From the NCBI GenBank assembly GCA_007376195.1, contig VMFT01000008.1, forward strand, positions 1-36,033: a stretch of 36,033 nucleotides of DNA, given 5' to 3'. The position numbers and the translations under genes are program-made. Positions 16,686 through 33,595 of this stretch are shown piece by piece. The notes beneath the pieces are model-generated. The model was not told where the DNA came from. It made no database searches and saw only the letters and a list, made by a program, of their open reading frames with translations. Each line of letters begins with the position of its first letter. Positions within the stretch are counted from its first letter, which is position 1. Source of the stretch: Parcubacteria group bacterium Gr01-1014_29. GTDB taxonomy: Bacteria; Patescibacteriota; Minisyncoccia; Ryanbacterales; 2-02-FULL-48-12.

Positions 16686-17606
16686 ATGTACGACGTTACT
16701 ATAATTGGTGGGGGTCCTGCTGCTGCGGGTGCTGCGGTGTATGTTGCGCGCAAAAAATTAAAAACATTACTTATCGCGGGCGAGTTTGGAGGGCAGTCTA
16801 TTGTATCTGCGGACGTACAAAATTGGATAGGTACGAAGTCTCTTTCGGGTTTTGACCTTGCCAAAAATCTGGAAGAACATATTCGCAACTATCCGGAGGA
16901 AGTAGAGATCAAAGCGCCCGAACTTGCAACAAAAATTTCTAAAAAAGGAAGCGGTTTTTTGGTGGAAACTGACAAGGGCGGTGCGTATGATACCAAGACC
17001 GTTATTATTACGTCGGGTGCGCGGCGGCGAAAGCTCGGCATCCCGGGCGAAGAAGAATTCAACGGGAAGGGGGTTGCATATTGCTCCACGTGTGATGCGC
17101 CGTTGTTTGGCGGGAAGGACGTTGCGGTGGTGGGCGGGGGCAACGCGGGGCTTGAAGCAGTTGTGGATCTCTTTCCGTACGCAAGTAAGGTGTATCTTTT
17201 GGAATATTCTGATGGGTTAAAAGGGGACACCGTAACGCAGGAGCGCGTAAAAAATTCCGAAAAGGTACATATAATTTTTAACGCGGAAACGAAGGAAGTG
17301 AAAGGAGAGAAGTTTGTAACCGGACTTGCATATAAAGACCGTGTGTCGGGTGAGGAAAAAACACTTTCGGTGGGCGGTATATTTGTGGAGATCGGTTCTG
17401 TACCAAATTCCGAGTTTGTGAAGGATCTGGTAGAATTAAACAAGGCAGGCGAAATCCTGATTGACCACAAAACGGCGGCAACCTCATGTGAAGGCATTTG
17501 GGCCGCGGGAGATGTTACGGACGAGATGTACAAGCAAAACAACATCTCGGCAGGGGACGGAGTAAAAGCGGCATTGTCAGCGTATAGTTATCTCAATAAA
17601 AAATGA
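16686..17606 (+). CDS. trxB: Thioredoxin reductase
   Basis: This enzyme reduces thioredoxin with NADPH through FAD. The 306-residue length is typical of the low-molecular-weight type. Motifs: FAD-binding VTIIGGGPAAAGAAVYVARK (about 4-23), the redox-active pair in AYCSTCDAPLFGGKDVA (Cys-Ser-Thr-Cys, about 137-140), the NADPH-binding VAVVGGGNAGLEAVVDL (about 152-168) and the second FAD motif EGIWAAGDVTDE (about 269-280). GGQS at about 37-40 also fits. It supports a cytosolic thiol system; no thioredoxin gene is in the window. A small membrane-protein gene follows 24 nt downstream. Confidence 0.94.
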   Translation: MYDVTIIGGGPAAAGAAVYVARKKLKTLLIAGEFGGQSIVSADVQNWIGTKSLSGFDLAKNLEEHIRNYPEEVEIKAPELATKISKKGSGFLVETDKGGAYDTKTVIITSGARRRKLGIPGEEEFNGKGVAYCSTCDAPLFGGKDVAVVGGGNAGLEAVVDLFPYASKVYLLEYSDGLKGDTVTQERVKNSEKVHIIFNAETKEVKGEKFVTGLAYKDRVSGEEKTLSVGGIFVEIGSVPNSEFVKDLVELNKAGEILIDHKTAATSCEGIWAAGDVTDEMYKQNNISAGDGVKAALSAYSYLNKK

Positions 17607-17630
17607 TTTAATATTAACTAAGTAAGATTT

Positions 17631-17927
17631 ATGATCAAGCATGGTTTTTTAATGAAAGCTCTGAATATGATTTGTTGGTTATTTTCTGTTCTCGTATTTA
17701 TTGATGTGTTAGTAATTTTGTTTGTGGGTGACAGTGACACTCCCTTTTTTCTTGCAGGACTTCTTGCTATGGGAAAACTTTGGTTAGGGCACCCTATGGG
17801 GTATGTTTTGTACAAGTCAGGTTTTAACAATCCTTCCATCGCATACGAAGCGGCATATATAATTTACGCGATAATTCTATGGGTTATATTTTTAGGATTG
17901 AGAAAAAGCAAAAACCTTAAATCATGA
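17631..17927 (+). CDS. Small membrane protein, unknown
   Basis: The 98-residue product is mostly hydrophobic, with three likely membrane helices (about 10-33, 38-52 and 72-91) and a basic end (RKSKNLKS). An internal ATG at 17652 is an alternative start. I do not recognise a family. It lies between trxB and the gap stub and is AT-rich. Confidence 0.55.
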   Translation: MIKHGFLMKALNMICWLFSVLVFIDVLVILFVGDSDTPFFLAGLLAMGKLWLGHPMGYVLYKSGFNNPSIAYEAAYIIYAIILWVIFLGLRKSKNLKS

Positions 17928-17937
17928 ACTCTCTTTT

Positions 17938-18006
17938 ATGAAAATCGCAATTAATGGGTTTGGCCGCATTGAGGCATCTTTCATGAAGCGAAAAAATATG
18001 CTCTAA
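17938..18006 (+). pseudogene. Stub of the gap 5' end
   Basis: From 17938, 34 nt encode MKIAINGFGRI and match the start of intact gap at 18902 with one mismatch (position 17958, G versus T). Homology stops after the codon for Ile11; the frame continues for 11 unrelated codons to TAA at 18004. It is separated from the intact gene by exactly the MNT/HepT pair. It cannot encode a functional enzyme, but translation of the 22-codon peptide is possible. Confidence 0.85.
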
Positions 18007-18013
18007 TGCCTGT

Positions 18014-18490
18014 ATGAAACTTCAAGATTTTGAACAACTGCATGCTATTTTTCAGGAGCACCATGTCGCGTTAGCGTATGTGTTTGGTTCTGTTGCGCAA
18101 GGCACAGAAGGTCCATTATCAGACATAGATATCGCGGTGCTCTTCGATGAAAGTGTGTCAAAAGAACTGCAAGCAGAGCAGGAATTTAGTTTGGTGAATT
18201 CGATTGGACAAGTATTAAAAAAAGAGCGCATAGATATTATAAATCTTGGAAGAATACGAAGTCCTGTCTTAAAACATCGCGCCATATTTTTGGGGCGCCC
18301 CATTTTTGCGGCGGACGAGCATTTGCGTGTACGATTTGAGAAGCAAGTTTTAGAAGTATACGAAGACACGAAGCATCTACGGCACGTTACCCATACGACC
18401 ATGAGGCGACAGATAAGGGAAAGGACTTTTGGAAATGGAGCTTTGTCTCCGCGAGAAAAGTATATAATACAAAAACATGCCACTCGATAA
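18014..18490 (+). CDS. mntA: MNT-type nucleotidyltransferase antitoxin of a MNT/HepT module
   Basis: The 158-residue protein has the minimal nucleotidyltransferase motif GSX10DXD: Gly25-Ser26 in AYVFGSVAQG and Asp37/Asp39 in LSDIDIAVLFDE. In characterised MntA/HepT systems this enzyme adds AMP groups to the HepT toxin and so neutralises it. The C-terminal part (RQIRERTFGNGALSPREKY) extends beyond the core. It overlaps hepT by 14 nt, the usual antitoxin-first order. A -10-like TCTAAT (18002-18007) ends 6 nt before the ATG, just past the gap stub, so the module probably has its own leaderless promoter. Confidence 0.88.
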   Translation: MKLQDFEQLHAIFQEHHVALAYVFGSVAQGTEGPLSDIDIAVLFDESVSKELQAEQEFSLVNSIGQVLKKERIDIINLGRIRSPVLKHRAIFLGRPIFAADEHLRVRFEKQVLEVYEDTKHLRHVTHTTMRRQIRERTFGNGALSPREKYIIQKHATR

Positions 18491-18905
18491 AGAATCAATT
18501 CAGGAAAGGATCGGGAAACTTTCTCAGATTATAAAGCTGTTGGATCAATATAAAGGGGAATCCGAAGAAGATTTTCTCGTAGATTTTACTATCAATAGCG
18601 CGGCGCAGTTCAATCTTATTATCGGTATAGAAATTATAGTTGACATAGGCAGCCATATATTGAATGAGCTGTATCAGGTTCGTCCTAAAGAATATCAAGA
18701 AGTAATTACTGCGCTTGGCGAACAAGAAATAATTTCAAAAGAATTTGCGGTTGAGAACAGCGACATGCCAAAGTTTCGGAATTTTGTTATTCATCAGTAT
18801 GAGGATGTTGATATGAAACAGGTACATGCATATCTTCAAAAGGCCCCCAATGTTTTTAGAAAATTTGCAGAATATTTTATGGATTTATTAGAAAAACAAG
18901 CATGA
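18477..18905 (+). CDS. hepT: HepT-like HEPN ribonuclease toxin
   Basis: The 142-residue all-helical protein has the HEPN signature RX4HXY as RNFVIHQY (Arg101, His106, Tyr108), the active site of HepT RNases and, in known systems, the tyrosine AMPylated by MntA. The upstream region (QFNLIIGIEIIVDIGSHILN) is typical of DUF86/HepT. The stop codon overlaps the ATG of gap (ATGA at 18902-18905), so translation of the glycolytic gene is probably coupled to that of the toxin. Residues for activity look intact. Confidence 0.88.
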   Translation: MPLDKESIQERIGKLSQIIKLLDQYKGESEEDFLVDFTINSAAQFNLIIGIEIIVDIGSHILNELYQVRPKEYQEVITALGEQEIISKEFAVENSDMPKFRNFVIHQYEDVDMKQVHAYLQKAPNVFRKFAEYFMDLLEKQA

Positions 18906-19933
18906 AAATCGCAATTAATGGTTTTGGCCGCATTGGCCGTTCATTTTTCCGAGCCGCATTTGGCGCTACGCCCTCCGAAGCTTTAGCGAAGGACGGGGAG
19001 TTTGATATTGTGGCTGTGAACGATTTAACAGATACAAAAACTCTCGCGTACCTTTTGAAATATGATTCTGTCTATGGCCGGTATGCAAAAGATGTAAAGG
19101 CGGAAGATGGCACATTGACAGTTGATGGGAAATCAATTCAAGTACTTGCCGAAAAAGATCCGGCTTTGCTCCCGTGGAAAAAGTTAGGGGTTGATGTGGT
19201 AGTGGAGTCAACAGGGTTTTTTACGGATGGCGCAAAAGCCAGAGCGCATATAGATGCGGGCGCAAAGCGCGTGGTTATTACCGCGCCCGCAAAGGGTGAT
19301 GCGCCTACTCTTTTAGTTGGAGTGAATGATGATGATTTCGGGAAAAACTCTTATCCTATTACATGCAATGCTTCTTGTACTACCAACTCGGTAGCGCCTG
19401 TGATGCGGATTTTGATGGACGAGTTTGGAGTTGAGAAAGCCGGCATGGTTACGGTGCATGGCTACACGGCAACACAAAAACTGGTTGATGGGCCGGACGC
19501 GAAAGATGTGCGCCGAGGGCGGGCTGCTGCCATCAATATCGTGCCTTCCACCACGGGAGCTGCGGAAGCGGTAATTCAATCCATTCCGGAATTGGAAGGA
19601 AAATTTGACGCCATTGCCATGCGGGTCCCTGTTGTCGCCGGTTCTCTGAGCGCCATAACTGCCCTACTTGGACGTCCGGTTTCCAAGGAGGAAGTAAATG
19701 ATGTATTCAGAAAGGCGGCGCAAGATTTTCGTTGGTCAAAAATACTTACTGTTACGGAAGACCCCATTGTGTCTACGGACGTTATTGGTCAGCCGTATGG
19801 CGCAATTATTGATCTCGCGCTTACTAAAGTGGTGGATAGTAATTTGGTAAAAGTATTTTCATGGTATGACAACGAAGCGGGCTACACGGCAACCTTAGTG
19901 GAGCATGTGAGGAGGATTGGAGAGAAGCTATGA
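18902..19933 (+). CDS. gap: Glyceraldehyde-3-phosphate dehydrogenase
   Basis: This enzyme oxidises glyceraldehyde-3-phosphate to 1,3-bisphosphoglycerate with NAD(P)+. The 343-residue length is standard. Landmarks: the NAD-binding start MKIAINGFGRIGRSFFRAAF; the catalytic Cys in ITCNASCTTNSVAPV (second C, about residue 159); a downstream HGYTATQKLVDGP with the catalytic-base histidine region; and the C-terminal SWYDNEAGYTATLVEHVRRI. Asp at the end of strand 2 (VAVNDLTD) fits NAD preference. The start overlaps the hepT stop and the end overlaps the next gene (ATGA at 19930-19933). A stub of its own 5' end lies 964 nt upstream. Confidence 0.97.
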   Translation: MKIAINGFGRIGRSFFRAAFGATPSEALAKDGEFDIVAVNDLTDTKTLAYLLKYDSVYGRYAKDVKAEDGTLTVDGKSIQVLAEKDPALLPWKKLGVDVVVESTGFFTDGAKARAHIDAGAKRVVITAPAKGDAPTLLVGVNDDDFGKNSYPITCNASCTTNSVAPVMRILMDEFGVEKAGMVTVHGYTATQKLVDGPDAKDVRRGRAAAINIVPSTTGAAEAVIQSIPELEGKFDAIAMRVPVVAGSLSAITALLGRPVSKEEVNDVFRKAAQDFRWSKILTVTEDPIVSTDVIGQPYGAIIDLALTKVVDSNLVKVFSWYDNEAGYTATLVEHVRRIGEKL

Positions 19934-20142
19934 AAACATTAAAATCAGCAATAGGAATTGTCTTGTGTTTCGCTGGAGGATATATTGGAAGCTTATTGGT
20001 TATTACAATAGCGAACATTTTCGTAGACAAGTCAGCTACTGAAGGTCTCGGATATGGAGTCATGCTTTATGGATTTTTACCAGGCATGGCTATAGCTTAT
20101 TTCATTCTTAAAAAGTATAGACCTGACTTCATAGGTAAATGA
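19930..20142 (+). CDS. Small two-helix membrane protein
   Basis: The 70-residue protein has two hydrophobic helices (about 5-31 and 43-60) with a short polar loop and a basic end (KKYRPDFIGK). ATGA overlaps at both ends, with gap at 19930-19933 and with the rpiB stub at 20139-20142, suggest that gap, this gene and the former rpiB once formed one translationally coupled operon. Function is unknown. Confidence 0.6.
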   Translation: MKTLKSAIGIVLCFAGGYIGSLLVITIANIFVDKSATEGLGYGVMLYGFLPGMAIAYFILKKYRPDFIGK

Positions 20143-20177
20143 CCATCTACATCGGGTCCGATCACACTGGGGTTTAA
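20139..20177 (+). pseudogene. Stub of an rpiB 5' end
   Basis: The ATG at 20139 opens MTIYIGSDHTGV-stop, matching the RpiB N-terminus (intact copy at 20637: MKIYLAADHAGF). About two thirds of the bases match over 36 nt, and the shared residues include the active-site Asp-His pair. The divergence indicates that the stub comes from a different rpiB allele or xenologue rather than a recent copy. It lies immediately upstream of a DUF6922/AbiEii-type cassette. Confidence 0.7.
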
Positions 20178-20185
20178 TCCGTCGT

Positions 20186-20214
20186 TTGGAACGAGAGATA
20201 CAATATGCTATACT
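20186..20214 (+). promoter_or_regulatory. Promoter of the DUF6922 gene
   Basis: TTGGAA (20186-20191), 17-nt spacer, TATACT (20209-20214). Transcription would start near 20221, with AGAGG (20215-20219) and the ATG at 20225 just after the -10. It begins 8 nt beyond the rpiB stub. Confidence 0.6.
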
Positions 20215-20224
20215 AGAGGTATCT

Positions 20225-20476
20225 ATGGTTTCAAAATCCTCTAAAAAACCTATCAAGTTTCGGCAATCTTTGTTTTGGGATGTGGATCCAAAAACAATAG
20301 ATCCGAAGAAGAACGCCAAATATATTATTGAGCGGATACTTGAGTTTGGCATGATTGAAGAACTTACGTGGATGTTTCATTACTATCCATTATCTCTGAT
20401 TCGCGATCGCGTGTATCATTCCCGAGGAGTCATCCGTAAAAAATCAAAAGCTTTATGGTCGCTCGTTCTCCGCTAG
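20225..20476 (+). CDS. DUF6922-like protein, likely partner of a lost AbiEii-type gene
   Basis: The ATG at 20225 (MVSKSSKKPIKFRQSLFWDV) is preferred because a good -10 box overlaps the alternative upstream start at 20186. The 83-residue product aligns by eye with the protein at 29088: F-x-x-x-[LF]-[FL]-W-[DS]-V, then [KN]-x-x-Y-I-I-[EN]-[RQ]-I-L-x-F-G, L-x-W-[MI]-F-x-x-Y and [LH]-x-L-[IR]-[RD]. I associate this with DUF6922, usually encoded just before an AbiEii-family nucleotidyltransferase. Here that partner survives only as a fragment. The gene may now be an orphan antitoxin-like protein. Confidence 0.6.
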   Translation: MVSKSSKKPIKFRQSLFWDVDPKTIDPKKNAKYIIERILEFGMIEELTWMFHYYPLSLIRDRVYHSRGVIRKKSKALWSLVLR

Positions 20477-20623
20477 AAACTATTTTACCTGAAGACTTGC
20501 ATATACAGTGTTTGCTGCCGCCTACGCAGCAAGCTTTTTTTGCGGTGAGTTTGGAAAACCGTCAAAGCCTATTTTCAAAAAGAAATTCATAAGATCGCAA
20601 AAGAATTATTGCGGTTAGAATAA
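20455..20623 (+). pseudogene. Remnant of an AbiEii-type nucleotidyltransferase gene
   Basis: An ATG at 20455, overlapping the DUF6922 3' end as in the intact pair at 29386, opens MVARSPLETILPEDLHIQCL and LPPTQQAFFAVSLENRQS, which resembles the N-terminus of AbiEii partners of DUF6922 genes. The frame stops at about 20590. A second frame, to TAA at 20621, reads FQKEIHKIAKELLRLE, a plausible C-terminus. The catalytic core (GGT and DFD motifs) is missing, so an internal deletion with frameshift is inferred. The toxin half of this cassette is dead. Confidence 0.5.
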
Positions 20624-20636
20624 GAAATCATACTCT

Positions 20637-21077
20637 ATGAAAATTTATTTGGCAGCTGATCACGCGGGGTTTGGGCTGAAAGAAGAAATTCGGCATTTTT
20701 TGGTTGCGGAAGGGTACGACGTGGCAGACTTAGGCGCGAACCGTGAATCACGTGATGACGACTATCCGGATTTTATGCGGCCGGTTGCCGAACATGTTTC
20801 CCGCGAGAAAGATGCGGTGGGGATATTGTTTGGCGGTTCAGGCCAAGGGGAGGCGATGGTTGCGAACCGATTTCCCGGGATACGCGCGGTTGTGTGGTAT
20901 GGAAAGAACGATCGCATCATAACGCTTTCTCGCGAGCACAACAATGCGAATGTGCTTGCCATAGGCGCGCGGTTCGTAAGCGCGGAAGAAGCGAAACGCG
21001 CCATTCAACTGTGGCTTACCACGCCATTCTCGGAAGACCCGAGGCACAAGCGGCGGGTTGACAAAATCGATAATTAA
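20637..21077 (+). CDS. rpiB: Ribose-5-phosphate isomerase B
   Basis: RpiB interconverts ribose-5-phosphate and ribulose-5-phosphate. The 146-residue protein has the family landmarks: MKIYLAADHAGFGLKEEI with the Asp-His pair (8-9), DDDYPDFMRPVAEHV (about 40-54), the anion-binding loop GILFGGSGQGEAMVANRFPG and the segment LSREHNNANVLAIGARFV. The usual nucleophilic cysteine in the GGSGQG(N/E) loop region is absent, as in RpiB relatives that carry GGSGQGEAM. It follows the decayed cassette by 13 nt; a diverged stub of another rpiB 5' end lies at 20139. Confidence 0.9.
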   Translation: MKIYLAADHAGFGLKEEIRHFLVAEGYDVADLGANRESRDDDYPDFMRPVAEHVSREKDAVGILFGGSGQGEAMVANRFPGIRAVVWYGKNDRIITLSREHNNANVLAIGARFVSAEEAKRAIQLWLTTPFSEDPRHKRRVDKIDN

Positions 21078-21780: not shown

Positions 21781-21812
21781 AAAAGGCGTCGCGAGCAGAT
21801 GCCTTTTTCTTT
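21781..21812 (+). terminator. Rho-independent terminator
   Basis: AAAAGGCGTC (21781-21790) pairs with GATGCCTTTT (21798-21807), with one G-T wobble and a 7-nt loop, followed by a T/C-rich tract. It lies 10 nt after the 21770 stop. Confidence 0.8.
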
Positions 21813-21832
21813 TGTCTTTTTCTTTTTTCCTT

Positions 21833-21838
21833 TATACT
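21833..21838 (+). promoter_or_regulatory. -10 box of the rpe promoter
   Basis: TATACT ends 6 nt before the rpe ATG at 21845, and the intervening TTCTAT is not a ribosome-binding site. The -35 region is a T/C-rich tract shared with the preceding terminator and gives no clear hexamer. A leaderless transcript is likely. Confidence 0.45.
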
Positions 21839-21844
21839 TTCTAT

Positions 21845-22489
21845 ATGCGCGAAGTAGAAATCATCCCCTCAATAAACGCCGAAACATTTGCGGAAGTGCA
21901 GAAAAAAATCCGTCTGGTGGAGCCCTACGTCTCCTGGGTTCATTTGGATGTTGCCGACGGATCGTTTACGGATATCACGCTGTGGCATAATCCGGATGAC
22001 TTATTGGAATTTCAGACGCCGTTGTTTATTGAGGTGCATCTCATGCTTGACCGTATTGATGAGCGCGCGGATGAGTGGCTCAAGCCCAACGTGCGGCGCT
22101 TGATATTTCACCGCGAAGCCTCGCGCGACCCCGACACGGTTATAGAAGCATGTCGCCGGGCGGATATACAGCCGGGTATTGCTATTCGGCCCGACACACC
22201 CGTGGAGGATGTGTTTCCATATCTCGCGAAAATTGATTTGGTGCAGACGCTTGCGGTAGTGCCGGGTCGTGCGGGGCAGAAATTTATCCCCGAGACACTT
22301 TCTAAGATTTCGGCACTGCGTTATGCCTGCTCCGCATGCCGCGTGGAGGTGGACGGCGGCATTGATACCAACACAGCGCTGCAGGTTGTGCGCGCGGGCG
22401 CTGATACACTGGTTGTCGCAAGCGCAATTTTTAACACTTCTGACATTAAAAAAGCTGTAGAGGAACTGCGAAGTCATGCGAATATATAG
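21845..22489 (+). CDS. rpe: Ribulose-phosphate 3-epimerase
   Basis: Rpe interconverts ribulose-5-phosphate and xylulose-5-phosphate. The start at 21845 (MREVEIIPSINAETFAEVQK) is preferred over 21812, which lies in the promoter. The 214-residue TIM barrel shows WVHLDVADGSFTD (HxDxxDG-type metal/active-site motif, about 35-47), FIEVHLMLDR (about 66-75), GIAIRPDTPVEDV and the final VDGGIDTNTALQVVRAGADT (about 178-197) with the catalytic Asp. LAVVPGRAGQKFIPETLSKI matches the flexible loop (the family usually has a Met-rich VNPGFGGQ form). The 3' end overlaps the next gene by 14 nt. Confidence 0.88.
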   Translation: MREVEIIPSINAETFAEVQKKIRLVEPYVSWVHLDVADGSFTDITLWHNPDDLLEFQTPLFIEVHLMLDRIDERADEWLKPNVRRLIFHREASRDPDTVIEACRRADIQPGIAIRPDTPVEDVFPYLAKIDLVQTLAVVPGRAGQKFIPETLSKISALRYACSACRVEVDGGIDTNTALQVVRAGADTLVVASAIFNTSDIKKAVEELRSHANI

Positions 22490-24833
22490 TACGTCCTCAT
22501 ATATTGTGTGGAGTTTATTCGTGCTTGTATCAGGCGGCGCGCTTGTTTCCATTCCGTTTATTCTTACTGACTACATTACGACACCCTCTGCTTTGTCATT
22601 TGAGTCCCAAAAAACACCGAACGGCGCAGAGTCCGGCGTATTGGCGAGCAGTGATATTGTTGCGGTTGCTGACACGTCGCTTATGCAAAACCGCGCCGAG
22701 ATATACCAGACGCGCACTCTCGAAAGTTTATCGTTTTCTGTTCCCAAGACTGGTAGGGCAATCTTTGCCGATTTGGCCGAGATGATGCTCCGGGTGTATC
22801 GCGATGGGGCGGAAATTTCGGCATATCCTATTCTCTCAAAAGGTAAGCCTGGGTCGCTGTGGGAGACGCCGACTGGGGTGTATGCCGTAAAGACAAAAGA
22901 AGAAAATCATTTTTCAACTATCGGGGAGGTTTGGATGCCGCACAGCTTGCAGTTTTTCGGAAATTTTTTCATACACGGGTGGCCACATTATTTTGATGGA
23001 AGGCCGGTTCCCGAAGGTTTTTCCGGCGGATGCATACGCCTTTCAGCTCAAGATGCCGAGCAGGTATTTAAAGCAGTAGATATTGGCGTACCGGTGTATG
23101 TGACAAATGGCGCTCTGCCGGCAGTTCTTGCGGCGACTGACGCGCCGGAAGAGGAACAATTTGGGTATCGCGGACGAGAATCATTTACGCCGCCGCCGGC
23201 TCTATCCGGTGAGGCTGCCATTGTTGGCGATCTTGAAAATGGTTTTCTCTTTTTTGAAAAAAATCAGGATACCGCGCGTTCGCTTGCTTCTCTCTCAAAA
23301 CTTATGACTGCCCTGATTTCAGTGGAGACGGTTAATCAATTCCACACGGCGACGATTACCGAAGAAGATGTAGAAATATATGGAGATGCTGGCGGGCTCC
23401 ATGCCGGAGACCGCTTTGAAGTAGGCGAGTTACTCTGGCCGCTGCTTCTTACGTCTTCCAATGACGCGGCGCATGCTATAGCGCGCCAAATCGGCGCAAA
23501 ACAATTCGTGCGGCTTATGAATGAAAAAGCCGCGAGTTTGGGGCTTGGCAATACCTTGTTTGTGGAGCCATCCGGTCTTGACCCCGCAAACACATCAACT
23601 GCGATTGATACGTTTCGGCTGGTACAGTATTTGTGGTCAAACAAACGTTCGCTTCTAGAGATGACGGAAAAACGGAGTTATAAGACATGGCGCAACATTC
23701 ATCCGTTTGTTTCCAAGAGCACTTTTTTGGGCGGGAAGACCGGTTATATTCCGGAAGCAAAACGAACTATTGTCTCTGTTTTTTCTATGCCATTCGGTGA
23801 GTTTGGCAAGCGATCCATTGCGGTTGTCGTTCTTGGTTCTGATGCCATTCAGTCTGATGTCGAGCGCCTGCGCATATGGGCAAAAAATAATTTTATGTAT
23901 GATTTGCAACTTCCGCAGGAAAACCAGCGCATAGAGTATGCCGCGCGTGATTTGTCCAACCCATCTTCGGCGCTTTCCTTACTGTTTACGGGGGACATCA
24001 TGCTCAACCGCGGGGTGAAAGCTGTTATCCAGAAAAACGGCGGCGATTGGTCTTTTCCGTTTGCTCATGTGGCGGAAGTAATAAAATCAGCGGATATTAC
24101 GTTTGGCAACATGGAAGGCCCCGCGTCTGATGTAGGGGAAAACGTCGGGAGCGTCTACTCGTTCCGTATGGATCCACGCGTACCCGAAGCGTTTGCGAGC
24201 GCCGGGTTTGATGTTGTTTCGCTTGCGAATAATCACATGGGTGATTGGGGCCGCACAGCATTTGAAGATACCATGCGCCGTCTTCGCCGGGCTGGCGTTG
24301 CATACGCCGGCGCCGGATGGAACAGCGCGGAAATTCTAAAACCAACGGTTGAGGAGAGAAACGGAATGCGCGTTGGGTATCTTGCGTTTAGCGATGTGGG
24401 GCCGGGTTTTCTTCGCGCGGGAGAAGCGCTGTCGGGAATTGCCGTAGTGCCTGCGGGAAACCAAGGACTTTCCTATGTGGAAAAAGCCGTCTTACAAGCT
24501 TCGCGCGATGTTGATATACTGGTAGTGTCGTTCCATTTTGGTGAGGAATACGAGCCTTTGCCAACCCTGCGCCAGCGCGCGCTTTCGCGTATTGCCATTG
24601 ATGCCGGGGCTCGAGTTGTCATTGGACATCATCCTCATGTAGTGCAAAGCGTGGAGGAATATGGCGGCGGTGTTATTGCTTATAGTCTGGGAAATTTCGT
24701 GTTTGATCAAAACTTCTCACCCGAGACGATGGAAGGCCTGATGCTCAAAGTGGAGTTTCAAGGAAAAGACATAACTGCCGTAATCCCGATACCCATTAAG
24801 ATGAATGAATTTTATCAGCCAGAGGTAGAATAG
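22476..24833 (+). CDS. Cell-wall fusion protein: L,D-transpeptidase + D-Ala-D-Ala carboxypeptidase + CapA-like domain
   Basis: The 785-residue protein starts with a signal anchor (about 9-31). Domain 1 (about 90-211) is a YkuD-type L,D-transpeptidase with His167 in FFIHGWP and Cys186 in FSGGCIRLS, the HXn-SGGCIRL signature. Domain 2 (about 244-476) is a peptidase S11/PBP-type DD-carboxypeptidase with SLSK (272-275), SSN (327-329) and KTG (421-423), all three catalytic motifs. Domain 3 (about 497-775) is a CapA/PgsA-like metallophosphatase fold: FTGDIMLNRGV, FGNMEGP, SLANNHMGDWG, VVSFHFGEEYE and GHHPHVVQ. All domains would sit outside the membrane. The first two act on peptidoglycan peptides; the third is linked in other proteins to poly-gamma-glutamate. 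The gene overlaps rpe by 14 nt. Confidence 0.9.
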   Translation: MRIYSTSSYIVWSLFVLVSGGALVSIPFILTDYITTPSALSFESQKTPNGAESGVLASSDIVAVADTSLMQNRAEIYQTRTLESLSFSVPKTGRAIFADLAEMMLRVYRDGAEISAYPILSKGKPGSLWETPTGVYAVKTKEENHFSTIGEVWMPHSLQFFGNFFIHGWPHYFDGRPVPEGFSGGCIRLSAQDAEQVFKAVDIGVPVYVTNGALPAVLAATDAPEEEQFGYRGRESFTPPPALSGEAAIVGDLENGFLFFEKNQDTARSLASLSKLMTALISVETVNQFHTATITEEDVEIYGDAGGLHAGDRFEVGELLWPLLLTSSNDAAHAIARQIGAKQFVRLMNEKAASLGLGNTLFVEPSGLDPANTSTAIDTFRLVQYLWSNKRSLLEMTEKRSYKTWRNIHPFVSKSTFLGGKTGYIPEAKRTIVSVFSMPFGEFGKRSIAVVVLGSDAIQSDVERLRIWAKNNFMYDLQLPQENQRIEYAARDLSNPSSALSLLFTGDIMLNRGVKAVIQKNGGDWSFPFAHVAEVIKSADITFGNMEGPASDVGENVGSVYSFRMDPRVPEAFASAGFDVVSLANNHMGDWGRTAFEDTMRRLRRAGVAYAGAGWNSAEILKPTVEERNGMRVGYLAFSDVGPGFLRAGEALSGIAVVPAGNQGLSYVEKAVLQASRDVDILVVSFHFGEEYEPLPTLRQRALSRIAIDAGARVVIGHHPHVVQSVEEYGGGVIAYSLGNFVFDQNFSPETMEGLMLKVEFQGKDITAVIPIPIKMNEFYQPEVE

Positions 24834-25091: not shown

Positions 25092-25973
25092 ATGTTATCT
25101 GACGAAAAAACGCAATTTCTGGAACAGAAAGCCAACGAAATTCGCGTTTCCATTATCGAGATGCTTATTGAAGCAAAGTCCGGGCACACGGCGGGGCCTT
25201 TGGGCATGGCTGATATATTCACCGCGATGTACTTTCATATATTAAAGCACGATCCAAACAACCCCGATTTAGAAGAACGGGATCGTTTGGTGCTTTCCAA
25301 TGGGCATATTTGCCCGGTTCTCTATGCTACGTTGGCGCACGCGGGATATTTTCCGGTGGAAGAGTTGCAAACATTGCGTAAGTTAGGAAGCCGTCTGCAG
25401 GGGCATCCGCACCGCACTTCACTACCCGGACTTGAGACGACATCCGGTCCGTTGGGATCCGGTTTGTCGCAAGCAGTGGGAATGGCAATTGCTCTGCGAA
25501 TTGATGCAAAGCTGAATCAGGTATACTCTTTTACATCAGACGGCGAGCACGACGCCGGAAACACGTGGGAGGCGGTTATGCTCGCTGGCAAGCTCAAGCT
25601 CGCGAACCTGACAAATCTTATTGACCGCAACAATATTCAAATAGATGGCATGACAGAAGATATCATGCCGTTGGAGCCTCTTCGCGAAAAATATGAAGCA
25701 TTCAACTGGCACGTGCTTGAGATAAACGGACATGATTTCCATGAAATAATAAACGCGTACGAAGAAGCGCGTGCTATCTACGAGCGCCCTGTCTGCATTA
25801 TCGCGCATACCATTCCCGGCAAGGGTATTCCCGAAATTGAGTTTGACTACCGGTGGCATGGGAGCCCGCCTGGAAAAGGCCCCGGAGATAAAATTCCGCA
25901 AGAGGAGCAAGGAAAGCGATTTTTGGCGGAACTACGCACGCTGGGCGGTAAAATAACAAGCGAACATGAGTAA
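25092..25973 (+). CDS. tkt: Transketolase, N-terminal (ThDP-binding) subunit
   Basis: Transketolase moves two-carbon units between sugar phosphates. This 293-residue protein is the pyrophosphate-binding half, encoded separately as in archaea and many CPR bacteria. Visible features: HTAGPLGMADIFTAMYFHIL, RDRLVLSNGHICPVLYATLA, GHPHRTSLPGLETTSGPLGS, GLSQAVGMAIA, the ThDP motif SDGEHDAGNTWEAVMLAG (GDG-type; here S-D-G-E-H) and the downstream LIDRNNIQIDG. The partner half is normally adjacent but here begins 4.06 kb further on at 30035. The stop overlaps the next gene by 8 nt. Confidence 0.93.
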   Translation: MLSDEKTQFLEQKANEIRVSIIEMLIEAKSGHTAGPLGMADIFTAMYFHILKHDPNNPDLEERDRLVLSNGHICPVLYATLAHAGYFPVEELQTLRKLGSRLQGHPHRTSLPGLETTSGPLGSGLSQAVGMAIALRIDAKLNQVYSFTSDGEHDAGNTWEAVMLAGKLKLANLTNLIDRNNIQIDGMTEDIMPLEPLREKYEAFNWHVLEINGHDFHEIINAYEEARAIYERPVCIIAHTIPGKGIPEIEFDYRWHGSPPGKGPGDKIPQEEQGKRFLAELRTLGGKITSEHE

Positions 25974-26648: not shown

Positions 26649-26750
26649 ATGATCGAAAATGAAAAAACCATTCATTGGGTGACCGTGGTGTTGGTACTGC
26701 TCGCTACAGCGATGGTATTTTTTGTGACTGTTGCGAAAAATAACATGTAG
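26649..26750 (+). CDS. Tiny single-helix membrane protein
   Basis: ATG at 26649 opens a 33-codon frame, MIENEKTIHWVTVVLVLLAT and then AMVFFVTVAKNNM, with one clear membrane helix. It is 14 nt after the previous stop and 7 nt before the next gene, and the frame is clean. It may be a genuine micro-protein or the membrane-anchor start of a lost gene. Confidence 0.4.
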   Translation: MIENEKTIHWVTVVLVLLATAMVFFVTVAKNNM

Positions 26751-26757
26751 AGTGCGT

Positions 26758-27423
26758 ATGTTTACTCAAGAAAAACTTAGCCACATCGTAGCCGTAGCGC
26801 TTCTTATTATTGCCGTGCAGGTTATTGCCGTTGTTGAGTATTTTGACATTCCCGATCGCAAAGAAAGTTCTTTTCAAGACAGCACTGCATGCACCCAAGA
26901 AGCAAAACTCTGCCCCACACTAGAAAGCCAGAAGCTGGATACTGGCGAGCTTGAAAATCCAGATATCCAGTCTCCGGATTCTAGCAATCCAGAGTGGCAA
27001 ACCTACCGCAACGAGGAGTATGGGTTTGAGATGAAGTATCCTCTGGACTGGATTATAGGAGAAGAAAATTATGTAATACCCCAAAAAGAAGTCCGTGTTG
27101 TACGTCTCCAATCAAATAATAATAGGTTGGCATTTACCGTACGTGTAAGAACAAGCGATCCACGTGAAGATAAAGAAGAATTTCTTTTAGACCGTGGATT
27201 AATAAATTCTTCCTTCAAGATCGAAAGTGTATCCTACCCAGTAAGCATATTCCCGAAAGGGTACGAGTGTTATGAACCAGCTACCTTTGATGAGTGTTCA
27301 AGATTTTACCTCGTAATCGACGATAAAGAGAAATGGTACATTCTACAAGGCGATGGTGGCCTTACCGAAGGTATTAAAACACCATATACACGAATCCTCT
27401 CCACCTTCAAATTCATTAAATAA
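26758..27423 (+). CDS. PsbP-like membrane-anchored protein (paralogue 1 of a near-repeat pair)
   Basis: The ATG at 26758 is chosen because MFTQEKLSHIVAVALLIIAV matches the start of the paralogue at 28176 (MFKQEKPIHIIAVGFLLIAV); an upstream in-frame ATG at 26731 has no counterpart. The 221-residue protein has a membrane helix (about 9-27), a linker CTQEAKLCPTLESQKLDTGE..., the motif EWQTYRNEEYGFEMKYPLDW and the tail RILSTFKFIK. The linker and motif DNA (26890-27030) is almost identical to 28299-28439. The domain probably faces outward; role unknown. Confidence 0.65.
   Translation: MFTQEKLSHIVAVALLIIAVQVIAVVEYFDIPDRKESSFQDSTACTQEAKLCPTLESQKLDTGELENPDIQSPDSSNPEWQTYRNEEYGFEMKYPLDWIIGEENYVIPQKEVRVVRLQSNNNRLAFTVRVRTSDPREDKEEFLLDRGLINSSFKIESVSYPVSIFPKGYECYEPATFDECSRFYLVIDDKEKWYILQGDGGLTEGIKTPYTRILSTFKFIK
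26890..27030 (+). repeat. 141-nt direct repeat within PsbP-like genes, copy 1
   Basis: The same 141-nt segment occurs at 28299-28439 with 4 mismatches, three of them silent-looking. The flanking parts of the two genes are much more diverged. This points to recent gene conversion or transfer of this segment only. It encodes the linker and the start of the PsbP-like domain. Confidence 0.9.
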
Positions 27424-28175: not shown

Positions 28176-28883
28176 ATGTTTAAACAAGAAAAACCAATTC
28201 ATATTATAGCAGTCGGTTTCCTGCTTATTGCAGTGGAGATTATTGCTATTGCAAGTTATTTTGATCTTCCTGACCATAGCATTAGCCAACGGGTCGCTTG
28301 CACCCAAGAAGCAAAACTTTGCCCCACACTGGAAAGCCAGAAGCTGGATACTGGCGAGCTAGAAAATCCAGATATCCAGTCTCCGGATTCTAGCAATCCA
28401 GAGTGGCAAACCTACCGCAATGAGGAGTATGGGTTTGAGTTTAAGTATCCAAAAGAATATATTTTTGAGGAAAATGAAATCAATAATAACGAGCGTCTAT
28501 CTTTAAATTTTGGCGTGAAGAATACATCTGGTGGATTAAATCCTAAACTGGGAATAATAGTAACAGAACTTCAGAATATAACTCTCAATGAGTGGTTAAG
28601 TAGCCTTAGTTGGATTGCTGAAGGCGATCATTCAGGTCCGCTTTTACAGGAAGCAAAAGTAAGTAATGTTTTGGTAGATGGTATAAATGCTAAGCGAGTT
28701 ATACCAAGATATGGACAGGGCAAAGTACCGAGAACATATGTGCTAAGGGATGGGCTTGGATATACAATTTGGGTGACAGATGGTGTATGGGATTACGGTG
28801 ATTACGCGGGTGATATGGATATTGAGGAGTATTATTTATTAGTTGAGAATCAAGTTCTTTCTACCTTCAAATTTATACAATAA
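28176..28883 (+). CDS. PsbP-like membrane-anchored protein (paralogue 2 of a near-repeat pair)
   Basis: The 235-residue protein mirrors 26758: MFKQEKPIHIIAVGFLLIAV with a membrane helix, the Cys-containing linker CTQEAKLCPTLESQKLDTGE, WQTYRNEEYGFEFKYPKEY, and the tail QVLSTFKFIQ. The central domain differs strongly from paralogue 1 (here GGLNPKLGIIVTELQNITLN, and GYTIWVTDGVWDYGDYAGDM), so only ends and linker are shared. It starts 13 nt after vapC. Function is unknown. Confidence 0.65.
   Translation: MFKQEKPIHIIAVGFLLIAVEIIAIASYFDLPDHSISQRVACTQEAKLCPTLESQKLDTGELENPDIQSPDSSNPEWQTYRNEEYGFEFKYPKEYIFEENEINNNERLSLNFGVKNTSGGLNPKLGIIVTELQNITLNEWLSSLSWIAEGDHSGPLLQEAKVSNVLVDGINAKRVIPRYGQGKVPRTYVLRDGLGYTIWVTDGVWDYGDYAGDMDIEEYYLLVENQVLSTFKFIQ
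28299..28439 (+). repeat. 141-nt direct repeat within PsbP-like genes, copy 2
   Basis: Counterpart of 26890-27030 (137 of 141 bases identical by direct comparison). Confidence 0.9.
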
Positions 28884-29087: not shown

Positions 29088-29405
29088 ATGAAAAATGTAG
29101 AAGCTGAACAAAAGATTAAGCAAAAGATTCCCCATTTTTTGCAACCGTTTTTGTGGTCGGTAAATATAGATGGTCTCGATGTTAATGAAGATAAAGTATA
29201 TATCATTAACCAAATTCTGGCTTTTGGGGATATGAAGGCCTTAGCGTGGATTTTTAAAACGTACTCCCTCCATGAGTTACGGGATGTGTTTTCACGCCAC
29301 GGCATGAGGATATACAGAGAAGCAGGATTTTATTTTGTTAAGGATATCCTTTTGGGTATTCGCGAGGTTTTTGATCCTACAAAATATGTCTCAACCAAGT
29401 TTTGA
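29088..29405 (+). CDS. DUF6922-like protein, probable antitoxin partner
   Basis: The 105-residue protein contains PFLWSVNIDGLDVNEDKVYI, INQILAFGDMKALAWIFKTY, LHELRDVFSRHGMRIYREAG and FYFVKDILLG, the pattern I associate with DUF6922. A shorter relative is encoded at 20225. The gene overlaps the AbiEii-type nucleotidyltransferase by 20 nt. Such pairs are commonly viewed as toxin-antitoxin or abortive-infection modules, though the biochemical role of DUF6922 is not established to my knowledge. It begins right after the transketolase stub. Confidence 0.75.
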   Translation: MKNVEAEQKIKQKIPHFLQPFLWSVNIDGLDVNEDKVYIINQILAFGDMKALAWIFKTYSLHELRDVFSRHGMRIYREAGFYFVKDILLGIREVFDPTKYVSTKF

Positions 29406-30021
29406 TATTCTCAATAAACCGCAAAGGGAAATTTTTGAAAAATTGACTTCTTTGAAAAAAGAAGCTGTTTTGGCCGGAGGGACCGCCCTTTTGCTGCAAA
29501 TTCAGCATCGACAATCATTTGATTTTGATTTGTTTTTCGCGAGAGAATTAGAAAGAAATGATTTGATAAAATTAAAAAAAACGATATCAATAAAGGAAGT
29601 TGGACTTAATACGAAAGAACAGATTAACATTATCACTGCAAACGACGTTTTGATTAACTTAGTATTTTATCCGTTTCCGTTCATATTCCCGCAAGAAAAG
29701 ACAGCTGTTATACCTCTTGCTTCCATTAAAGATATTGCTTTGGACAAAGCGTATACAATAGGTCGTCGTGCTCTCTGGCGCGATTATGTTGATATGTTTT
29801 TTTTGTTGAAAGATAATCATATTACTCTTTCAGAAATATCCGCCTCAGCGCCAAAAAAATTTGGTCCTGAGTTTAATGAGCGGTTGTTCTTAGAACAGCT
29901 TATCTTTTTTGGTGACATAGAAATTGTAAAAATTTCTTTTCTCAAAGAGCAGTTTGAGGAGGAAGAGATTAAAAAGTTTTTTACCAGCTCCGTGCAAAGT
30001 TACCGACAAAAAATTTTGTAA
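29386..30021 (+). CDS. AbiEii/AbiGii-family nucleotidyltransferase (toxin-like)
   Basis: The ATG at 29386 is chosen, giving 211 residues (MSQPSFDILNKPQREIFEKL); the frame from 29335 lies deep inside the previous gene. The core motif AVLAGGTALLLQIQHRQSFD and then FDLFF (about 28-52) has the GGT and DFD catalytic elements of AbiEii-type nucleotidyltransferases; RALWRDYVDMFFLL (about 128-141) matches the conserved RDY-x-D motif. In AbiEii systems this fold is the toxin. It appears intact. Its stop is 13 nt before the transketolase C-half start, so that gene is likely co-transcribed. Confidence 0.85.
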   Translation: MSQPSFDILNKPQREIFEKLTSLKKEAVLAGGTALLLQIQHRQSFDFDLFFARELERNDLIKLKKTISIKEVGLNTKEQINIITANDVLINLVFYPFPFIFPQEKTAVIPLASIKDIALDKAYTIGRRALWRDYVDMFFLLKDNHITLSEISASAPKKFGPEFNERLFLEQLIFFGDIEIVKISFLKEQFEEEEIKKFFTSSVQSYRQKIL

Positions 30022-30034
30022 TATTTTTAAAAGT

Positions 30035-31066
30035 ATGCCCATACATCCCCAAGCAAAACTTGTAGAAAACATTCTTGATTTCAAGTCGTTGGACCAAAAG
30101 CCTATCCGTGAGGGGTTTGGTATTGGGTTAGTTGAAGCTGCGGATGCGAATCCGAATGTAGTGGGATTGTGCGCTGATCTTACGGAATCTACCAAGATGG
30201 ACGCGTTTGCTAAAAAATACCCAGAGCGGTTTGTGCAAATAGGTGTTGCCGAACAAAATCTTGCGGCGGTTGCGTCCGGCATGGCCGCGGTAGGGAAAAT
30301 CCCCTATATCTCGTCGTACGCCATGTTTAGCCCGGGGAGAAACTGGGAGCAGATCCGCACAACTATCTGCTACAACGAACGGCATGTGATCATCGCGGGG
30401 TCGCACGCGGGGATTTCGGTCGGGCCCGATGGTGCCACACACCAGGCTGTTGAAGATATTGCCCTCATGCGGCCTATCGCCAATATGACGGTGATCGCGC
30501 CGTGTGATGTGCACGAAGCAAGGAAAGCCACAGTGGCGGCGGCAAATTTGCCTGGGCCGGTGTACATTCGCCTCGCACGCGAGAAAACACCTATGTTTAC
30601 CACCCCTGAAACGCCGTTTGAAGTAGGAAAGGCATATGAAGTTTGGCGCTCGGATGGTAGTCCTTCGGCCGACTCAGGACGATCAAAACCACAGGTGGTT
30701 TTGATCGCTTGCGGGTCGCTTGTGCATAATGCCATTCTTGCGGCGGCTGAACTTGAGGAACAGGGTGTAGGAGTTGTTGTTGTGAATAACCATACCATAA
30801 AGCCGATTGATGAACGTGCTATAATAAAAGCGGCAAAAGAAGCGGGCGCGGTGGTTACGGTAGAGGAGCACCAGGTTATGGGGGGCATGGGATCTGCCGT
30901 TGCGGAAGTTCTTGCGAGAAATCATCCGGTGCCTATGGAGTTTGTTGGTGTGCAGAATCGGTTTGGCGAGTCGGGCGAACCCATAGAACTTATTGAAAAA
31001 TTCAATATGCATCCAGCCGCTATTGTGAAAGCGGCGCAAAGAGTGATACAAAGAAAGAAAGGATAA
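30035..31066 (+). CDS. tkt: Transketolase, C-terminal (pyrimidine-binding) subunit
   Basis: The ATG at 30035 is supported by the matching stub at 28927; the longer frame from 29954 overlaps the nucleotidyltransferase. The 343-residue protein has the Pyr domain (FVQIGVAEQNLAAVASGMAA with the catalytic Glu), RHVIIAGSHAGISVGPDGAT, HQAVEDIALMRPIANMTVIA and the C-terminal domain (TVEEHQVMGGMGSAVAEVLA, VQNRFGESGEPIELIEKF). With 25092 it forms one transketolase. Around residues 205-218 an unusual SDGSPSADSGRS insert is encoded by palindromic DNA (30660-30706). The gene ends 11 nt before a secreted-protein gene. Confidence 0.94.
   Translation: MPIHPQAKLVENILDFKSLDQKPIREGFGIGLVEAADANPNVVGLCADLTESTKMDAFAKKYPERFVQIGVAEQNLAAVASGMAAVGKIPYISSYAMFSPGRNWEQIRTTICYNERHVIIAGSHAGISVGPDGATHQAVEDIALMRPIANMTVIAPCDVHEARKATVAAANLPGPVYIRLAREKTPMFTTPETPFEVGKAYEVWRSDGSPSADSGRSKPQVVLIACGSLVHNAILAAAELEEQGVGVVVVNNHTIKPIDERAIIKAAKEAGAVVTVEEHQVMGGMGSAVAEVLARNHPVPMEFVGVQNRFGESGEPIELIEKFNMHPAAIVKAAQRVIQRKKG
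30660..30706 (+). repeat. Palindromic DNA inside the transketolase C-half coding sequence
   Basis: Two adjacent hairpins: GTCCT...AGGAC (30660-30680) around TCGGCCGA, and GATCAAAACCAC-AG-GTGGTTTTGATC (30681-30706), a perfect 12-bp stem. They encode the low-complexity stretch SPSADSGRSKPQVVLI between domains. This looks like an in-frame insertion of a small palindromic element. Confidence 0.6.
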
Positions 31067-31077
31067 AATAATACTAT

Positions 31078-31842
31078 ATGCATTCTGTTATATATAAGAA
31101 GTTTTATAGAACGTTCGTCTTGCTTCTTGTTCTTGGCGGGTTTGTGGTTTTATTTACCGTGCCAGTTTCATCATCTTCGTTGGCAGACAGCGCGCACGCG
31201 GTTACGTTAGAAAGCATTCAGCAGCAATTAAACGAAATCTTTGCGGTACTAAAACGCATAAGCGATAGAATAGCAATTCTATTGCAAGAAGCACAGGGCA
31301 AAAAAACACCCGTATCAACAGAAACACAGATAGCAGATACCGTTTTACCACCGGCGGAACCAGTGGAGGTGTCTATTGTCCCTACTGTTGTGCCTGTTGC
31401 ATCTGTGTCAGAACCAGTATGGAAATTTATAGAAGTTCCCTCGCGATCGTTTGCGGGCGGATTGATAATTTTATATCGGTACTCAATTACTGCGGGTGAT
31501 AAGGACTTTACCGTATTTTCAGCTCGGTTTCATGTAGCGTTTGGCGACGTTTCTGTAAAAGATTTGGAAGTGCATGCATTCAAGGATGAATATTTTTCAA
31601 CGAGAGCTTACAAAATAGGTTCAGCGTACAACAATATGCTTTATGTTGGCAGACGCAAGGGGTTTTTGGAAAGCGGCAAGCAAGATGTTGATATTTCATT
31701 CGAGAATGGCGTTTCCGCAGGCCTTCTTATTCCTGCGAGAGAGACAAGATATTTCGAGCTTCGCGGTTTTACGTCTGGGAAAAACACGACTGCATATTTG
31801 GAAGTTTCCGGGGAGGGGCTTTCAAAAGTCGTATTTGAATAA
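31078..31842 (+). CDS. Secreted protein with coiled coil, unknown
   Basis: The 254-residue protein has a signal peptide or anchor (about 13-36, FVLLLVLGGFVVLFTVPVSS), a short coiled coil (LESIQQQLNEIFAVLKRISD), a Pro/Val-rich linker (about 84-112) and a beta-rich domain from WKFIEVPSRSFAGGLIILYR to the end. The coiled-coil after the signal peptide resembles the layout of the giant surface protein at 8827. No known domain is recognised. It lies 11 nt after tkt and 11 nt before the PfkB gene. Confidence 0.65.
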   Translation: MHSVIYKKFYRTFVLLLVLGGFVVLFTVPVSSSSLADSAHAVTLESIQQQLNEIFAVLKRISDRIAILLQEAQGKKTPVSTETQIADTVLPPAEPVEVSIVPTVVPVASVSEPVWKFIEVPSRSFAGGLIILYRYSITAGDKDFTVFSARFHVAFGDVSVKDLEVHAFKDEYFSTRAYKIGSAYNNMLYVGRRKGFLESGKQDVDISFENGVSAGLLIPARETRYFELRGFTSGKNTTAYLEVSGEGLSKVVFE

Positions 31843-31853
31843 CATATTCTATA

Positions 31854-32837
31854 ATGCGAGAAGACGAATTTGATTTTGTTGCCATAGGCGATACCGTAAC
31901 CGACGCGTTTATCCGCCTTGAAGATGCCATGGTAGACAAAGACAAGAACATGCTCTGCATGCGGTTCAAGGATAAAATACCCTACAAGGAGGTGGTAATT
32001 GTTCCCGCTGTGGGTAATAGCGCAAACGCTGCGGTCAGCGCGGCGCGTCTTGGTTTAAAAACTGCTTTTATAACCAACCTTGGGGCGGATGATTGGGGGG
32101 AAGAATGTAAAAATAAGCTCGTAGCTGAACATGTTGATACGAAATTTGTTGTGCAACAGCAAGGGAAAAAAACGAATTACCACTATGTGCTCTGGTTTGA
32201 GGACGACCGCACTATTCTTGTAAAACATGAGGAATATGATTATGTCCTGCCTGATTTCGGAACGCCTAGATGGGTGTATCTTTCATCTGCGGGCGGTAAT
32301 TCACTACCGTTTCATATGGCTCTCGCGGATTATCTTGACGCGCACCCTGATATTAAACTTGCGTTCCAGCCCGGTACCTACCAGATGAAATTCGGCAAGG
32401 AAGCATTAGAGCGAATATACAAGCGCGCTGATTTTTTTGTGTGCAATAAGGAAGAAGCAGAGCGCATTTTGGAAACAGGGGAGAGCGATATAAAAAAACT
32501 TTTGCATATGATGGCAAGTCTCGGCCCAAAACTCACGGTTATAACCGATGGCAAAATAGGAGCATTTGTGTATGACGGAAAAGATGTATGGGTGATGCCT
32601 TCGTATCCGGATCCAAAACCACCCTATGAGCGTACCGGCGCGGGGGATGCGTTTTCTTCCACGTTCGCGGCATTTCTTGCGTTGGGTCTTAGCATGGAGG
32701 ATGCTTTAACACGAGCGCCTATCAATTCCATGTCGGTTGTACAGTATGTGGGTGCGCAGGAAGGGCTTTTATCGCGCGATAAAATTGAAGAGTATCTCAC
32801 TAAAGCGCCGGAGGACTATAAGCCGCAGAAAGTCTAA
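31854..32837 (+). CDS. PfkB-family carbohydrate kinase
   Basis: The 327-residue ribokinase-fold protein has DFVAIGDTVTDAFI at the start, the substrate-side motif VGNSANAAVSAARLGLKTAF (about 52-71), FVCNKEEAERIL (about 196-207) and the PfkB signature 2 region ERTGAGDAFSSTFAAFLALG (about 261-280), with catalytic Asp in GAGDAF. It phosphorylates a sugar or nucleoside with ATP; which one (ribose, fructose-6-phosphate, adenosine or other) cannot be told from sequence by eye. Its position next to transketolase and near rpiB/rpe suggests feeding the pentose-phosphate pool. Confidence 0.85.
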   Translation: MREDEFDFVAIGDTVTDAFIRLEDAMVDKDKNMLCMRFKDKIPYKEVVIVPAVGNSANAAVSAARLGLKTAFITNLGADDWGEECKNKLVAEHVDTKFVVQQQGKKTNYHYVLWFEDDRTILVKHEEYDYVLPDFGTPRWVYLSSAGGNSLPFHMALADYLDAHPDIKLAFQPGTYQMKFGKEALERIYKRADFFVCNKEEAERILETGESDIKKLLHMMASLGPKLTVITDGKIGAFVYDGKDVWVMPSYPDPKPPYERTGAGDAFSSTFAAFLALGLSMEDALTRAPINSMSVVQYVGAQEGLLSRDKIEEYLTKAPEDYKPQKV

Positions 32838-32893
32838 AACGTAAAGTGTAAGTCCTCTTCCACTTTTGCGTCGGATATGGTACGCTGAACATT

Positions 32894-33583
32894 ATGTTGG
32901 AGTTAGCAGTAAAACCTCGAAAAGAACTTGGAAAAAAGGCAAAAAATGTGCGTAAAACCGGTACTATCCCGGCTATTTTATATGGGTATGGAGTTAAACC
33001 ACAGCCGCTCCAGGTAGAGTTGCGCGCGTTTCAAAAAGTATGGCAATCCACAGGCGAATCATCTTTAGTTTCGCTTCAGCTTGAAGGAGGCAGTACGCAA
33101 ACTGTTCTTATCTATGACGTCGCGCGTGATGTATTAAAAGATATACCCATGCATGTTGATTTCTACGCTGTGCGAATGGATAGGCCGCTGGAAGCTCATA
33201 TACCCATTACGTTTACCGGTGAGTCCGATGCCGTAAAATCGCTCGGTGGCATATTGGTAAAAGTAGCGCATACGCTCGAAATTCGGGCGCTCCCGCAAAA
33301 CTTGCCGCATGAAATCAGCGTAGATATCACGCCCCTCCATGCTCTTGACGACCAATTGTTTGTAAAAGATATTACACTGCCAGAAGGCGTGGAAGCGCTT
33401 GCCGATCCTGAGCAAGTGCTTGTTTTGGTGGAAGCGCCGCGCACGGAGGAAGAACTTTCGGCAATGGAACAACCTTCTGAAGTATCTCTTGAGAACATTG
33501 AGGTTGCTGGAAAGAAGGAAAAGGAAGAAGAACCCGAATCTGAAGAAGTTGTAGATGTACAGAAGAAAGAGCAAAAAGAATAA
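32894..33583 (+). CDS. rplY: Ribosomal protein bL25 (CTC/TL5 type)
   Basis: bL25 binds 5S rRNA in the large subunit. The 229-residue two-domain protein starts LELAVKPRKELGKKAKNVRK and TGTIPAILYGYGVKPQPLQV, the canonical L25 N-terminal domain, and continues with the TL5/CTC C-terminal domain (DVARDVLKDIPMHVDFYAVR, HIPITFTGESDAVKSLGGIL, LPQNLPHEISVDITPL). The end is strongly charged (EKEEEPESEEVVDVQKKE). TTCCAC (32858-32863), a 17-nt spacer and TACGCT (32881-32886) could be its promoter, ending 7 nt before the ATG. Confidence 0.93.
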   Translation: MLELAVKPRKELGKKAKNVRKTGTIPAILYGYGVKPQPLQVELRAFQKVWQSTGESSLVSLQLEGGSTQTVLIYDVARDVLKDIPMHVDFYAVRMDRPLEAHIPITFTGESDAVKSLGGILVKVAHTLEIRALPQNLPHEISVDITPLHALDDQLFVKDITLPEGVEALADPEQVLVLVEAPRTEEELSAMEQPSEVSLENIEVAGKKEKEEEPESEEVVDVQKKEQKE

Positions 33584-33595
33584 GAAGTTAGATTT

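Follow-up and report, generated by a model that had tools for sequence, protein, structure and literature searches.

Does the window, the whole 36,033-nt stretch of DNA analysed here, truly encode three cell-wall enzymes on a single polypeptide, and if so, what might such a protein do to the wall? The window corresponds to an entire contig (C28) of a draft genome of 1.08 Mb in 52 contigs, and the gene in question, 22476-24833 on the + strand, is one uninterrupted frame of 785 aa (ORF check). The gene, its parts and its neighbours are as follows.

16686-21077, +: upstream part of the operon (thioredoxin-reductase-like protein, MNT/HepT pair, GAPDH, RpiB)
21812-22489, +: ribulose-phosphate 3-epimerase, rpe (Pfam PF00834)
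22476-24833, +: YkuD - Peptidase_S11 - PGA_cap (CapA) fusion; single frame, three Pfam domains, full-length in seven genomes
22497-22565, +: hydrophobic N-terminal stretch, residues about 8-30, probable single membrane anchor (sequence reading)
22755-23102, +: YkuD L,D-transpeptidase domain, residues 94-209, catalytic His167 and Cys186 (Pfam PF03734)
23193-23900, +: Peptidase_S11 D,D-carboxypeptidase/endopeptidase domain, residues about 240-475 (Pfam PF00768, phmmer, Foldseek)
23979-24830, +: CapA-like (PGA_cap) calcineurin-fold domain, residues 502-785 (Pfam PF09587, Foldseek, motifs)
25092-25973, +: transketolase N-terminal subunit, the next gene after the fusion (Pfam PF00456)
29954-34936, +: downstream conserved genes (transketolase C-terminal subunit, PfkB kinase, ribosomal L25, SLT_2 protein)

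The initial annotation had read the gene as a fusion of these three domains with intact catalytic motifs, and both parts of that reading hold. Each domain lies above its Pfam cut-off and carries the signature of its family: YkuD (residues 94-209; E = 2.9e-17, 64.1 bits vs. a cut-off of 23.4) has the catalytic His/Cys of HG...S/TxGC.R, with HG at 167, SGGC at 183-186, and H167 and C186 intact; S11 (240-437; E = 2.9e-29, 102.6 bits vs. 27.6) has the SxxK, SxN, KTG triad as SLSK (272-275, with Ser272 and Lys275), SSN (327-329) and KTG (421-423); and PGA_cap (502-745; E = 5.2e-70, 236.3 bits vs. 27) has the metal-site motifs GD (506-507), NME (545-547), NNH (585-587), H687 and GHHPH (717-721), with D507, E547, N586, H587, D590, H687, H719 and H721 as site residues. 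A PGA_cap search of the order's genomes matched at 23979-24710, and a YkuD search gave the same coordinates as Pfam. The CapA motif columns are nearly invariant across 116 CapA sequences, and the catalytic residues, HG..SGGC.R included, are retained in all seven known triples. So is the hydrophobic N-terminus, where the AF2 model places a helix (residues 6-24); from this topology, the three domains probably lie outside the cell behind a single membrane anchor. Model quality (mean pLDDT 66.4, pTM 0.45) is good over S11 and CapA; neither YkuD (2 aligned sequences) nor the arrangement of the domains can be read from it.

Because the source is a draft genome in 52 contigs, sequencing or assembly might have joined separate genes, an event the initial annotation had flagged as fatal to its reading. 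We reject this, because the same open, full-length frame recurs in independent genomes (60-66% identity within the family, 44-51% outside it), and independent genomes also share its operon neighbours. All 4 genomes of the family encode a full-length fusion at 60-66% identity, one of them on contig MHNR01000017.1 of Candidatus Ryanbacteria, as do 2 of the 5 genomes of the order's second family (G005 and G007; 50-51%); the single genome examined from the third family has no trace of it. The seventh triple, counting the source, belongs to another order (G297; 44% identity), where it has an unrelated neighbourhood and adjoins a second S11 gene. Among 380 sampled genomes of the phylum, every match at E ≤ 1e-60 falls within the same class. 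No relative of the triple was found on viral contigs, and no plasmid record covers 80% of it; an A. baumannii match to residues 294-782 is a CapA with an unrelated N-terminus. A search of the openly accessible literature (subscription papers being outside its scope) found no published description of the triple. The initial impression of an undescribed protein is thus sustained to that extent, although the gene is a member of a conserved family and not a singleton. The further worry, that the architecture might already be common and characterised, applies in part: two-domain halves are widespread, whereas the triple is restricted to one order and one outlier.

The home of the fusion gene is a conserved pentose-phosphate operon. 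In this order the genes run trxB-like, gapdh, rpiB, rpe, [slot], tktN, tktC, pfkB, L25, SLT_2, with lineage-specific insertions. The rpe gene is immediately 5' of the slot in every relative of the order that carries it, and in the window its end shares 14 bases with the start of the fusion gene, most slot-carrying relatives having such an overlap as well, while the transketolase N-terminal subunit is kept as a neighbour in all genomes of the order with the slot. The triple occupies this slot in the window and at five further loci (L009, L056, L057, L058 and L060, whose short contig begins at rpe); L062 and L063 instead have a lone CapA of 330-344 aa there, and in G009 the slot is empty. In other families, the junction between gapdh and rpiB contains CapA alone at five loci (L120, L129, L138, L139, L157) and YkuD-S11 at two (L189, L190). 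These seven cases, suggestive as they are, could reflect chance or shared descent, and we give them little weight because neither CapA nor YkuD was present in 60 sampled rpiB neighbourhoods, of which 59 lie outside the order and one is that of G009. The pentose-phosphate operon as a general host of CapA is rejected on the same count (0/60).

Toxin-antitoxin-like insertions also occur in this metabolic operon: an MNT nucleotidyltransferase/HepT pair (18014-18905) ahead of gapdh and an AbiEii-like protein (29335-30021) ahead of the transketolase C subunit, with AbiEii/HepT-like insertions in the same operon in L240, L247 and L249. Three paralogues with weak PsbP_2-like matches are encoded at 5561-6340, 26731-27423 and 28176-28883, and similar proteins lie near the operon in two relatives (L009, L060). 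Directly 3' of the ATP synthase beta gene, 8827-12378 encodes a 1183-aa protein with a peptidoglycan-binding domain, PKD and CARDB repeats.

Most of the about 116 CapA sequences of the class stand alone. Other CapA architectures are YkuD-S11-CapA, S11-CapA (L010-L013, L064-L066, L205, L206), CapA-VanY (L067 and, with one stop, L145), Memo-CapA, CapA-DUF192 and CapA with FG-GAP-like repeats; in L116 and L126 a lone YkuD gene is directly 5' of CapA. YkuD-S11 doubles are frequent, occurring in many genomes of the class. The CapA-VanY gene with the stop codon (L145:1-1369) is either a broken gene or a sequencing error. The Memo-like domain N-terminal to CapA is recurrent in the class (L015, L061, L072, L073, L112, L131). 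One S11-CapA sequence, L010, is labelled Burkholderiales; it groups with Nomurabacteria sequences and probably derives from a mis-binned metagenome contig.

In the CapA tree, the six triples of the order and the CapA-alone proteins L062 and L063 form one clade (100/97), whose sister clade comprises the G297 triple and S11-CapA, CapA-VanY and CapA-alone proteins. L062, whose operon slot is that of the triple L058, is also the sister of L058 (100/98), and its lineage has therefore most likely lost YkuD-S11. The S11-CapA protein L064 (G039) retains a YkuD remnant (20.5 bits, E = 3.4e-6) from which the catalytic end is missing; none of 200 shuffled sequences scored above 4.3 bits. The YkuD-S11 tree recovers the order's triples, the G297 triple and two doubles of family f33 together (90/77); for the YkuD-S11 half of the triples, L068/L069 rank among the nearest relatives. 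A single CapA clade of all triples plus L062/L063 is rejected (p-AU = 0.0026), while a single YkuD-S11 clade of all triples is not (p-AU = 0.139); L189 and L190 as closest kin of the order's triples are rejected (p-AU = 1.4e-6). The simplest reading is a probable single origin of the fusion, predating the separation of the order from its neighbours, with domains lost later; several independent fusions are the alternative.

Profile searches identified the triple as the only YkuD gene and the only PGA_cap gene in each of the 6 genomes of the order that have it. Two other genomes of the order (G004, G008) have CapA and no YkuD, and CapA therefore does not need YkuD. Penicillin-binding proteins were found in 10/10 genomes of the order, so the peptidoglycan substrate is presumably made.

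By both sequence and fold, the CapA domain is nearest to MslH (8gq9; Foldseek 4.2e-22), a lasso peptide C-terminal epimerase that uses Ca together with the His88/Asp91 and His295/Asp11 pairs (PMC10406935). In the alignment, E44, N87, H88, D91, H259 and H295 of MslH correspond to E547, N586, H587, D590, H687 and H721 of the fusion; the counterpart of Asp11, which is outside the aligned stretch, is D507 from the motif only. The MslH catalytic pairs are thus present as H587/D590 and H721 (alignment) with D507 (motif). The metal site differs: the extra ligand His261 of MslH is Gly689 in the fusion and MslH Gly293 is His719, so that the single-Ca site of the MslH type, with His261 and no first His of H-x-H, is absent, and the domain reaches 72.3 bits where the NCBIfam equivalog for MslH demands 700. 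Orthology with MslH is rejected by this score and ligand pattern, while MslH-like chemistry is still conceivable; with His719 the site keeps the H-x-H of two-metal phosphoesterases.

Following that pattern, and in line with the phosphatase-like step suggested by the initial annotation, the domain may be a metallophosphoesterase whose substrate is a wall polymer or lipid carrier in phosphorylated form, the fusion only placing it beside the peptidoglycan enzymes. We regard this as quite possible, if short of probable: it would fit the calcineurin fold and the H719 + H721 pair, which matches the H-x-H of two-metal enzymes such as YmdB where MslH has Gly293 (PMC10406935), yet the nearest solved relative by sequence and fold is an epimerase, and CapA is fused to D,D-carboxypeptidases of two unrelated folds, which points to peptide substrates. 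More tentatively, CapA might be the third of the heads to work on the stem peptide, perhaps as a metal-dependent epimerase or hydrolase at the peptide C-terminus, and serve as a general peptidoglycan enzyme of Paceibacteria, in which case the triple could trim, modify and cross-link one stem. The Pfam family name would suggest something else again, that CapA makes or tethers poly-gamma-glutamate and YkuD attaches the polymer to peptidoglycan. CapA/PgsA of B. anthracis and B. subtilis does have a role in poly-gamma-glutamate. However, CapC (PF14102), chosen as the marker since the CapB ligase resembles Mur ligases, was found in 0/10 genomes of the order by a search that did find it in B. subtilis, the positive control, and no capsule genes were recognised within the window. 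A poly-gamma-glutamate system is rejected on the missing CapC, which also leaves the gamma-linked polymer suggested by the initial annotation unsupported, and we consider this role for CapA very improbable.

On balance, we favor the view that the fusion is a maturation enzyme of peptidoglycan, anchored in the membrane and facing outward, with three catalytic heads, a reading drawn from sequence. Members of the S11 and YkuD families act on successive bonds of the stem peptide. Judged by its family, S11 would remove the terminal D-Ala from pentapeptide stems, or open D-Ala-mDAP bridges, to leave tetrapeptides. Cys186 of YkuD would then attack the mDAP-D-Ala bond of these tetrapeptides to form 3-3 cross-links, or might exchange or attach other groups at this bond; YkuD proteins may be hydrolases or attach proteins rather than cross-link. 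The calcineurin-type metal site of CapA would act on the same wall, most likely on the stem peptide or an attached moiety. The hand-off of substrate from S11 to YkuD, first proposed in the initial annotation, is plausible, given the recurrent YkuD-S11 doubles and E. faecium, where a D,D-carboxypeptidase feeds L,D-transpeptidation according to a study cited in PMC12729407 (its ref. 103). The label 'carboxypeptidase' for S11 is not certain, because its best D,D-peptidase match in NCBIfam is a D,D-endopeptidase, a match that falls far below the cut-off of its model.

The three domains might instead be joined without cooperating, small genomes fusing neighbours for shared anchoring and expression. 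Patescibacteria are ultra-small, mostly uncultured, and do have small genomes; CapA is also joined to Memo, DUF192 and FG-GAP-like domains, partners that keep the hint from CapA fusions from being proof; and in two genomes that lost or lack YkuD-S11, CapA stays in the slot. Against this, CapA repeatedly occurs fused or adjacent to YkuD and to D,D-carboxypeptidases belonging to two folds, and all three active sites are maintained over 44-66% identity. We therefore think a non-cooperative fusion rather unlikely.

VanY and S11 have unrelated folds and the same D,D-carboxypeptidase function, and nothing hints more strongly at action of CapA on peptidoglycan stems than its separate fusion to each. 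CapA-like proteins are widespread and usually annotated as capsule proteins, and we know of no substrate for them in most bacteria. Their repeated fusion to, or adjacency with, S11, VanY and YkuD is a direct, testable hint of action on peptidoglycan, and suggests that the 'capsule' protein CapA may work on the cell wall in these bacteria. The natural series of triple, S11-CapA with a YkuD remnant and CapA alone in the same slot offers ready constructs for each head, and the family bears on how ultra-small Patescibacteria build their cell walls.

Compared with known systems, the fusion has the HG...SGGC.R motif in common with YkuD-type transpeptidases (B. subtilis YkuD, 2mtz/1y7m; 5bmq of the ErfK/YbiS family), but its YkuD domain is joined to S11 and CapA, with no adjoining peptidoglycan-binding domain found. 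The S11 domain resembles B. subtilis DacB (3mfd; phmmer 1.1e-24), has a Foldseek match at 5.6e-14, and shares motifs and fold with S11 D,D-carboxypeptidases generally (DacB; M. tuberculosis Rv3330/DacB1, 4ppr; PBP7-type endopeptidases); it differs in that Pfam detects no separate PBP5_C domain and in its position between two other catalytic domains. With CapA/PgsA (PF09587) the fusion shares the calcineurin-like fold, in genomes of an order without CapC. Its closest architectural counterparts are the YkuD-S11 doubles of Paceibacteria (L033, L034, L068, L069), which have the same first two domains in the same order but, unlike the triple, no CapA, and the S11-CapA proteins of Ca. Nomurabacteria and others, which have the same last two domains in the same order but no working YkuD, L064 retaining its remnant. 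The component families are known; what seems new is their conserved three-domain combination.
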